Assembly: GCA_003222055.1 (NCBI GenBank) | Contig: QHUT01000066.1 | Span: forward strand, 1-45,449 | DNA: 45,449 nt | Direction: 5' to 3' | Source: Gemmatimonadota bacterium | GTDB lineage: Bacteria > Gemmatimonadota > Gemmatimonadetes > Gemmatimonadales > GWC2-71-9 | Shown here: positions 5,845-6,592 of the stretch, piece after piece | How the letters are laid out: each line of letters opens with the position of its first letter | Numbering within the stretch: position 1 is the stretch's first letter | Made by a program: the position numbers and the translations under genes | The notes under the pieces: model-generated | Databases searched by the model: none | Told to the model about the DNA's origin: nothing | The model's input: only the letters and a program-made list of their open reading frames with translations

Positions 5845-5885
5845 CTCCGGATAGACTGCCCACTCTCCCTCACCCCCAACAGTTT

Positions 5886-5967
5886 CCCACGCCGGAGGCG
5901 TGGGCCCGATGAGCACTGCGCTTAAGCGCAGTGTCTCACTGGACCCACTCTTCAGAGTGGGAATAAC
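5886..5967 (+). repeat. left triple-hairpin repeat
   Basis: Three palindromes follow one another. At 5886-5904 there is an 8-bp stem (CCCACGCC/GGCGTGGG) with a 3-nt loop. At 5914-5933 there is a perfect 20-bp palindrome centred on CTTAAG, which can be extended by TGAG/CTCA with one bulge. At 5944-5961 there is an 8-bp stem (CCCACTCT/AGAGTGGG) with a 2-nt loop. The copy at 6454 repeats this with few changes. Confidence 0.85.
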
Positions 5968-6041
5968 AAGGGGGCGCGAGTTCGTTCGTTGACCGCTCGT
6001 TGACTCTGCATCCGCAATGTGGCCCCTCCGACCCGGCCGCC

Positions 6042-6428
6042 ATGCCAGCGCACCGCATCTACATCCATCTGACCTGGTCGACGCTGGCGCGACGGCCGAT
6101 GATCGACGTCCCCACTCGTGCGTTTCTCGACGAATTCTTTCGCAGGATCGCCATCCAGGAGCGCGTGACGATCATGGCGCTCGGCTTCCTCCGTACGCAT
6201 GTGCATCTGTTGGTCCGCACCGCCCCGCGCTACGACCTGCCCCGGCTCGTCCAGTTGCTCAAGGGCGGAAGCAGCTACGCCGCCAGCCGGCAACCCGCAA
6301 ACGTGCTCGGGCTGCGGTGGAATCGCGAATACTCCGCAACGAGCGTGAGCCCAAGGCTCCTCCGCGAGCCGGTCACGTACATCCAGAGTCAGAGCAGTCG
6401 GCATCCGTCGGAGGCGATCCCACCCTGA
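6042..6428 (+). CDS. IS200-like / RAYT-type Y1 transposase
   Basis: This 128-residue protein fits the small single-domain Y1 transposases that nick and join single-stranded DNA. The HUH metal motif is THVHLLV, with His53 and His55. LVQLLKGGSSYAASR (about 69-83) is the usual LKG-S helix. The C-terminal VTYIQSQSSRHP holds Tyr113, which aligns with the catalytic tyrosine of the IS200 family (VxxYIxxQ). ATG 6042 is chosen because MPAHRIYIHLTWST is the normal N-terminus; a TTG at 6000 would add 14 unlike residues. The gene lies entirely between the two triple-hairpin repeats, which are its likely substrates. All catalytic residues seem present, so it may be active. Whether it is an IS200 or a domesticated RAYT needs copy-number data. 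Confidence 0.85.
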   Translation: MPAHRIYIHLTWSTLARRPMIDVPTRAFLDEFFRRIAIQERVTIMALGFLRTHVHLLVRTAPRYDLPRLVQLLKGGSSYAASRQPANVLGLRWNREYSATSVSPRLLREPVTYIQSQSSRHPSEAIPP

Positions 6429-6453
6429 ACTCACCGATCGCCGGCCCTGTTCT

Positions 6454-6535
6454 GCCACGCCGGAGGCGTGGGCCCGATAGAGCACTGCGCTTAAGCGCAG
6501 TGTCTCACAGGGCCCACTCTTCAGAGCGGGAATGA
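6454..6535 (+). repeat. right triple-hairpin repeat
   Basis: This is the second copy of the left repeat in direct orientation. Its hairpins lie at 6455-6471 (7-bp stem, 3-nt loop), 6483-6502 (the 20-bp palindrome, identical to the left copy) and 6513-6530 (8-bp stem with one changed pair, AGAGCGGG). The ends read GGGAATGAC here against GGGAATAAC on the left. Spacer lengths differ by a single base between the copies. Confidence 0.85.
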
Positions 6536-6592
6536 CGACGCACGGCGAGGGGGTACAGAACACGTACGACTTCCGATTCGAGCGATGTCCGG

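Follow-up and report, generated by a model that had tools for sequence, protein, structure and literature searches.

A single-copy Y1 transposase-like gene and two flanking three-hairpin repeats were found in the stretch of DNA analysed here (45,449 nucleotides of contig QHUT01000066.1 from a Gemmatimonadota bacterium, hereafter the window, to which all unprefixed positions refer). We conclude that they probably represent a REPIN/REPtron-like system of soil Gemmatimonadetes, with the three-hairpin unit as a mobile, non-autonomous repeat and the Y1 protein as its putative cognate single-stranded DNA (ssDNA) endonuclease/transposase. In a full-text literature search, with most subscription journals outside its scope, we found no account of a system of this kind from Gemmatimonadetes.

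The direct repeats are 83 nt long each, located at positions 5886–5968 and 6454–6536, and share 94% identity in BLAST. BLAST, folding and the PF01797 match confirmed the original prediction that two three-hairpin direct repeats flank a Y1 gene, with coordinates right to a base or two. The conserved edges of the element (TTCCC...GGGAA) lie at 5884–5963 on the left and at about 6452–6532 on the right, and both flanks of the gene are complete three-hairpin units in direct orientation to each other. The stem of the first hairpin has the same sequence in both repeats. As predicted, this also holds for the central palindrome CACTGCGCTTAAGCGCAGTG (5914–5933 and 6483–6502), while the third hairpin of the right repeat contains one mismatch. 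The features of the locus are as follows.

5884..5963, no strand assigned: left three-hairpin unit (TTCCC...GGGAA), a direct repeat with boundaries shared with about 20 dispersed copies
5886..5904, no strand assigned: outer hairpin 1 of the left unit, tagged, inverted relative to hairpin 3 and followed by the tag CCCG (fold, covariation)
5914..5933, no strand assigned: central palindrome CACTGCGCTTAAGCGCAGTG of the left unit (sequence, fold)
5944..5961, no strand assigned: outer hairpin 3 of the left unit (fold, covariation)
6042..6428, + strand: Y1 HUH transposase-like gene, 128 aa, with H53-V-H55, Tyr113 and Gln117 (PF01797, motif invariance, AlphaFold2, PDB fold matches)
6452..6532, no strand assigned: right three-hairpin unit in direct orientation (direct repeat, covariance model)
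6455..6471, no strand assigned: outer hairpin 1 of the right unit (fold)
6483..6502, no strand assigned: central palindrome of the right unit, identical to the left one (direct repeat)
6513..6530, no strand assigned: outer hairpin 3 of the right unit, with one mismatch (fold)

Near relatives carry a DUF2911-like gene, recognised by eye, between hisD and the next gene, at the place occupied by the Y1 cassette in the window. When the window region 5845–6560 was compared with G005 (L071), G001 (L073) and G004 (L072), this gene was found directly after hisD; G004 features a single tagged hairpin, GGGCCCGCTCTTCAGAGTGGGAA, at the cassette position. No cleanly empty cassette site was found at the hisD locus of the near relatives. 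Replacement and independent loss both fit the DUF2911-like gene in the relatives.

The open reading frame at 6042–6428 matches PF01797 with an E-value of 1.5e-16. Residues H53/H55, Y113 and Q117 are invariant in an alignment of 11 homologues. The catalytic motif of the protein, Y113-I-Q-S-Q117, is of the IS200-type Y---Q and not of the RAYT-type Y---NP, and its HUH context is THVH, the first residue of which varies in relatives. The protein scores 54.2–54.3 bits with the NCBIfam IS200 model (cut-off 55) and 26 bits with the REP_Tyr_transpos model, below the cut-off of 80. The AlphaFold2 model (pLDDT 93.7) matched ISDra2/IS608 and other IS200 TnpA structures as well as the E. coli TnpAREP structure 4er8 in the PDB, with 2xm3, 2xma and 2vhg as best matches. 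Tyr113 aligned to Tyr132 of ISDra2 (2xo6, Y132F). In superpositions of the monomer model (mfadb227cdda9), 4er8 was closer (2.7 A over 118 columns) than the IS200 TnpA chains (3.7–11 A). This may be due to the placement of the tyrosine helix in cis, which is perhaps a habit of the modelling rather than the sign of a truly monomeric enzyme.

The unit has the form TTCCCAnnCTgaAGnnTGGG-CCCG-n-[CACTGCcCTTAAGgGCAGTG]-n-CGGG-CCCAnnCTtcAGnnTGGGAA, an inverted repeat with imperfections in which two tagged hairpins face each other with a central hairpin between them. In the units read, the tag C[CT]CGG follows the left hairpin and CCG[AG]G precedes the right hairpin, or close variants occur. Read as CCG[AG]G, the tag lies 5' of its hairpin; for the right hairpin this is the top strand, and for the left hairpin the bottom strand. 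By eye, a single central hairpin was recognised in roughly 12 units of the genome and two in about 7 (the four-hairpin form), and one unit is without a centre. Units read by eye at a few sites lie between genes; an open-frame test does not discriminate in a genome this rich in GC.

Folding of the repeats as ssDNA was more stable than that of dinucleotide shuffles (z = −7.3 for copy 1 and −5.2 for copy 2), with none of 200 shuffles as good. The minimum-energy fold of copy 1 consists of exactly three hairpins. For copy 2, three hairpins are the best fold of the − strand, whereas on the + strand the three-hairpin fold (−22.7 kcal/mol) is slightly less stable than one long hairpin (−25.2 kcal/mol). 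Across 14 units, the variable stem bases were paired within their own hairpin in all 56 cases and across the unit in 14 of the 56. The covariation score for three hairpins was 0.240, compared to 0.079 for shuffles (0 of 500 reached 0.240), while the score for one long hairpin, 0.049, was not above that of shuffles. Because of this pairing pattern and of covariation for three hairpins only, selection keeps the local hairpins, and the left and right hairpins evolve independently. The pairing counts rule out one long hairpin, the classical REPIN fold, as the conserved structure despite the energy minimum of copy 2, and the predicted three hairpins per copy are supported by conservation over the 14 units.

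Solo copies of the repeat, for which the original prediction had suggested a search, were found both in the genome and in relatives. A covariance model detected about 20 dispersed units in the genome of the window (G000), about 15 in G001 and about 27 in G024; counts were halved, since the model scores each unit on both strands. Relatives of the genus and family have 1–27 units each. All ten genomes of the genus contain the unit, as do four others of the family, two of these four with weak matches only, and none was detected in 16 genomes from two other families of the order. The genomes compared are draft MAGs.

The repeat is neither confined to the window nor uniformly present at orthologous sites, so that the outcome named beforehand as refuting the original prediction did not occur. 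G009 lacks the unit at C10; as the flanks there share about 91% identity and the unit exists in G001, G004 and G006, loss is more likely than gain. The C148 unit occurs in the genome of the window, G009 and G004 but not in six other species, and G005 lacks the C164 unit. Gain and loss of units between species cannot always be told apart. Comparison of empty sites had been proposed as a means to find the target; presence/absence between species was indeed observed, while the empty and solo sites compared revealed neither a target-site duplication nor a clean target rule.

Homologues of the enzyme were found in a single family of Gemmatimonadetes; matches in other parts of the phylum were weaker. 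A search with a narrower homologue alignment returned ten loci, all from Gemmatimonadetes. Many homologues are flanked by units of a single plan (hairpin-CTCGGC-one or two central hairpins-GCCGAG-hairpin), the stems of which are lineage-specific; examination of homologue flanks showed no recognisable tagged hairpins beside some others. In the enzyme tree, the protein of the window forms a supported clade (96/95) with those of G002 and G216, and the units of this clade carry CCCGG-type tags in place of CTCGG. Proximity and this agreement with the tree suggest that enzyme and unit are cognate. Within a genome the pairing is not strict, since G001 has about 15 units, yet no enzyme of the group to which the protein of the window belongs (group A) was found in it; the gene may have been lost or be missing from the assembly, or the units may be acted on by a different enzyme.

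Two arrangements of the gene were observed. It lies between two complete direct units in the window and in L029, L150, L149, L154 and L162, and inside one split unit (hairpin-tag-central hairpin / gene / central hairpin-tag-hairpin) in L031/L134, L135, L136 and L033; L032 shows both arrangements. Several genes of the CTCGGC clade occupy one syntenic locus common to different genomes, whereas the cassettes of the genome of the window, G002 and G216 are found at three different loci, indicating that the cassette has been partly stationary and partly relocated.

Based on these characteristics, the system is REPIN/RAYT-like in behaviour, yet neither a RAYT by sequence nor a standard IS200 element. 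The dispersed multicopy unit is an inverted pair of REP-like hairpins according to alignment, covariation and model matches on both strands. As in the REPIN/RAYT systems and REPtrons of Pseudomonas and E. coli (PMC3116915, PMC8266576), the dispersed tagged-hairpin pairs are inverted, the hairpins show compensatory changes, the single-copy Y1 gene is flanked by its own repeat class, and several enzyme-repeat pairs per genome are possible. In contrast to the Y---NP motif and GT[AG]G foot of those systems, Y---Q and a CCG[AG]G foot were observed here; the GT[AG]G foot is absent from the units read, which have C[CT]CGG/CCG[AG]G tags or close variants. The motif and the lack of GT[AG]G in the repeats place the system outside the described RAYT subclasses. 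It further differs in that the spacer consists of one or two conserved hairpins and that the gene can lie inside the unit in relatives. The copy number of about 20 is low for REPs. The earlier suggestion of a RAYT system with a new REP class thus stands in part: dispersed solo copies, orthologous presence/absence, the single-copy Y1 gene beside units and the tag other than GT[AG]G agree with it, whereas the Y---Q motif of the enzyme does not.

The closest described system, compared by its published description, appears to be class 3 TnpAY1 of Quentin et al. 2018, although it is not fully matched. This class, known from Planctomycetes and Acidobacteria, is described as comprising intermediates between IS and REPtrons with atypical secondary structures, a 5' foot CnGA and high copy numbers (PMC6006769). 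Its proteins have Y----Q, NHVH and 155–178 aa, compared to Y---Q, THVH and 128 aa for the protein of the window, which is from Gemmatimonadetes. With respect to the CnGA foot, units of relatives have CCGA(G), and the class of the window has CCGGG or close variants. Hairpin-bearing spacers are also known from GTAG/CGTC REP dimers, in which spacers contain stem-loops, e.g. two in the CGTC-3 dimers of A. tumefaciens, and heterodimers with different stems occur (PMC3733652). The CGTC dimers resemble the unit of the window in this respect and differ in having other tags and no associated transposase gene. Three hairpins per unit are accordingly less unusual than initially supposed, and a distinct transposon type, the other option raised at the outset, is not required for a REPIN-like inverted tagged-hairpin pair with a spacer hairpin.

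An ordinary IS200/IS605 insertion sequence with unusually long ends, with the solo units as decayed ends, is an unlikely alternative. The core-only protein with HUH and Y---Q corresponds to IS200/IS605 class 1.1, its best fold matches are TnpA proteins of that family, and the NCBIfam scores lie just below the IS200 cut-off and far below that for REP_Tyr. Hairpins at the ends are shared with IS608 and ISDra2, and the gene inside one split unit in some relatives is IS-like. However, the flanks in the window are complete direct copies of one unit instead of distinct left and right ends. IS200/IS605 elements have small subterminal hairpins and multiply as gene-bearing copies, whereas the multicopy form is here a gene-less multi-hairpin unit; the genome holds one copy of the gene, and its flanks are two complete three-hairpin units in place of small subterminal left and right hairpins. 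The gene-less units are intact, far outnumber the gene and keep their stems by compensatory changes. Retention of the gene at one syntenic locus across several genomes is also unlike a transient IS.

Further Y1 genes and repeats were observed in the genome. A Y1 gene of a different branch (G000:C169:2244-2582, L009) lies amid at least five hairpins of the CCCCGGGC-N4-GCCCGGGG type and represents a second REPtron-like locus. A third Y1 gene (G000:C35:40799-41137, L011) is flanked by a 37-nt inverted repeat (94.6%) with AACCCCGGGGC hairpins, and a Y1 domain fragment covering model positions 40–82 (G000:C159:6229-6357, L012) is possibly a decayed copy. A second unit class, matching the pattern CGCGGCTCGGCNNTGCC, is dispersed through the genus (G000:C3, C93, C113, C141 and C144; G001, G002, G004–G009 and G024); the reversed control pattern gave one match in 13 genomes. 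At the positions of the CCCGG-class units G000:C5:1603 and G000:C164:6268, comparison with G009, G001 and G007 (L116, L119, L122, L123) showed that some carry another four-hairpin class, with CGCGGCT hairpins and CTCGGC/GCCGAG tags, and others none. The occurrence of two repeat classes at the same intergenic places may reflect target preference or replacement.

That another enzyme, e.g. one of the other Y1 proteins of the genome, moves the units, with the gene at 6042–6428 as a passenger or domesticated for another role, is improbable. The many units of G001, which has no group A gene, and the two other full Y1 proteins encoded at C169 and C35 speak for it; against it, these two genes belong to another branch of the tree and have different flanking repeats (CCCCGGGC...GCCCGGGG or the 37-nt inverted repeat). 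It is very improbable that the units are structured RNAs or terminators (bidirectional terminators or mRNA stabilisers) between two of which the Y1 gene inserted by chance: they are strongly structured, those read by eye are intergenic and REPs are known to be transcribed, yet an Rfam element, a terminator and a promoter were set aside as identities of the unit, since no credible Rfam match and no T-tract terminators or promoters at the units were found, units of like plan with lineage-specific stems flank the homologues in many other genomes, which is not expected by chance, and units come and go between close species.

For the REPIN/REPtron-like system favoured here, we propose that the unit would be exposed as ssDNA, e.g. 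during replication, and that the enzyme would bind a tagged hairpin. By analogy to IS608/ISDra2 and TnpAREP, in which a tetranucleotide 5' of the hairpin serves as guide or contact (PMC8266576), the enzyme here probably uses CCG[AG]G, 5' of the hairpin, for recognition or as a guide. The ssDNA would then be cut beside the hairpin by Tyr113 with the HUH-bound metal, and the ends rejoined. The unit would thereby disappear from its site, or a copy of it would enter a new one, mostly between genes. In this way the enzyme encoded in the window would mobilise the units.

Since the gene lies inside a split unit in several relatives, the gene-less units would most simply have originated from such an element by deletion. 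If its two like central hairpins recombined, the gene would be lost and exactly a three-hairpin unit would remain; if both central hairpins were retained, the four-hairpin form would result. The data agree with this origin.

The origin of REPs and REPINs is an open question, as is the way in which an enzyme encoded by a single gene copy came to act on a whole population of gene-less repeats. Bertels and Rainey proposed that REPs and REPINs descend from palindromes flanking an IS200-like element (PMC3116915). Both arrangements in one lineage, an enzyme with an IS200 signature and a tag type in agreement with the enzyme clade provide material to test this descent. We tentatively suggest, as a possibility somewhat short of even, that living intermediates between an IS200-like element and a REPIN/RAYT system exist in this family, with the gene inside a split unit in some species and between complete units in others, and the gene-less unit then arising by recombination of central hairpins. 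If this is true, the idea that REPINs descend from IS200-like ends could be tested directly on these intermediates.
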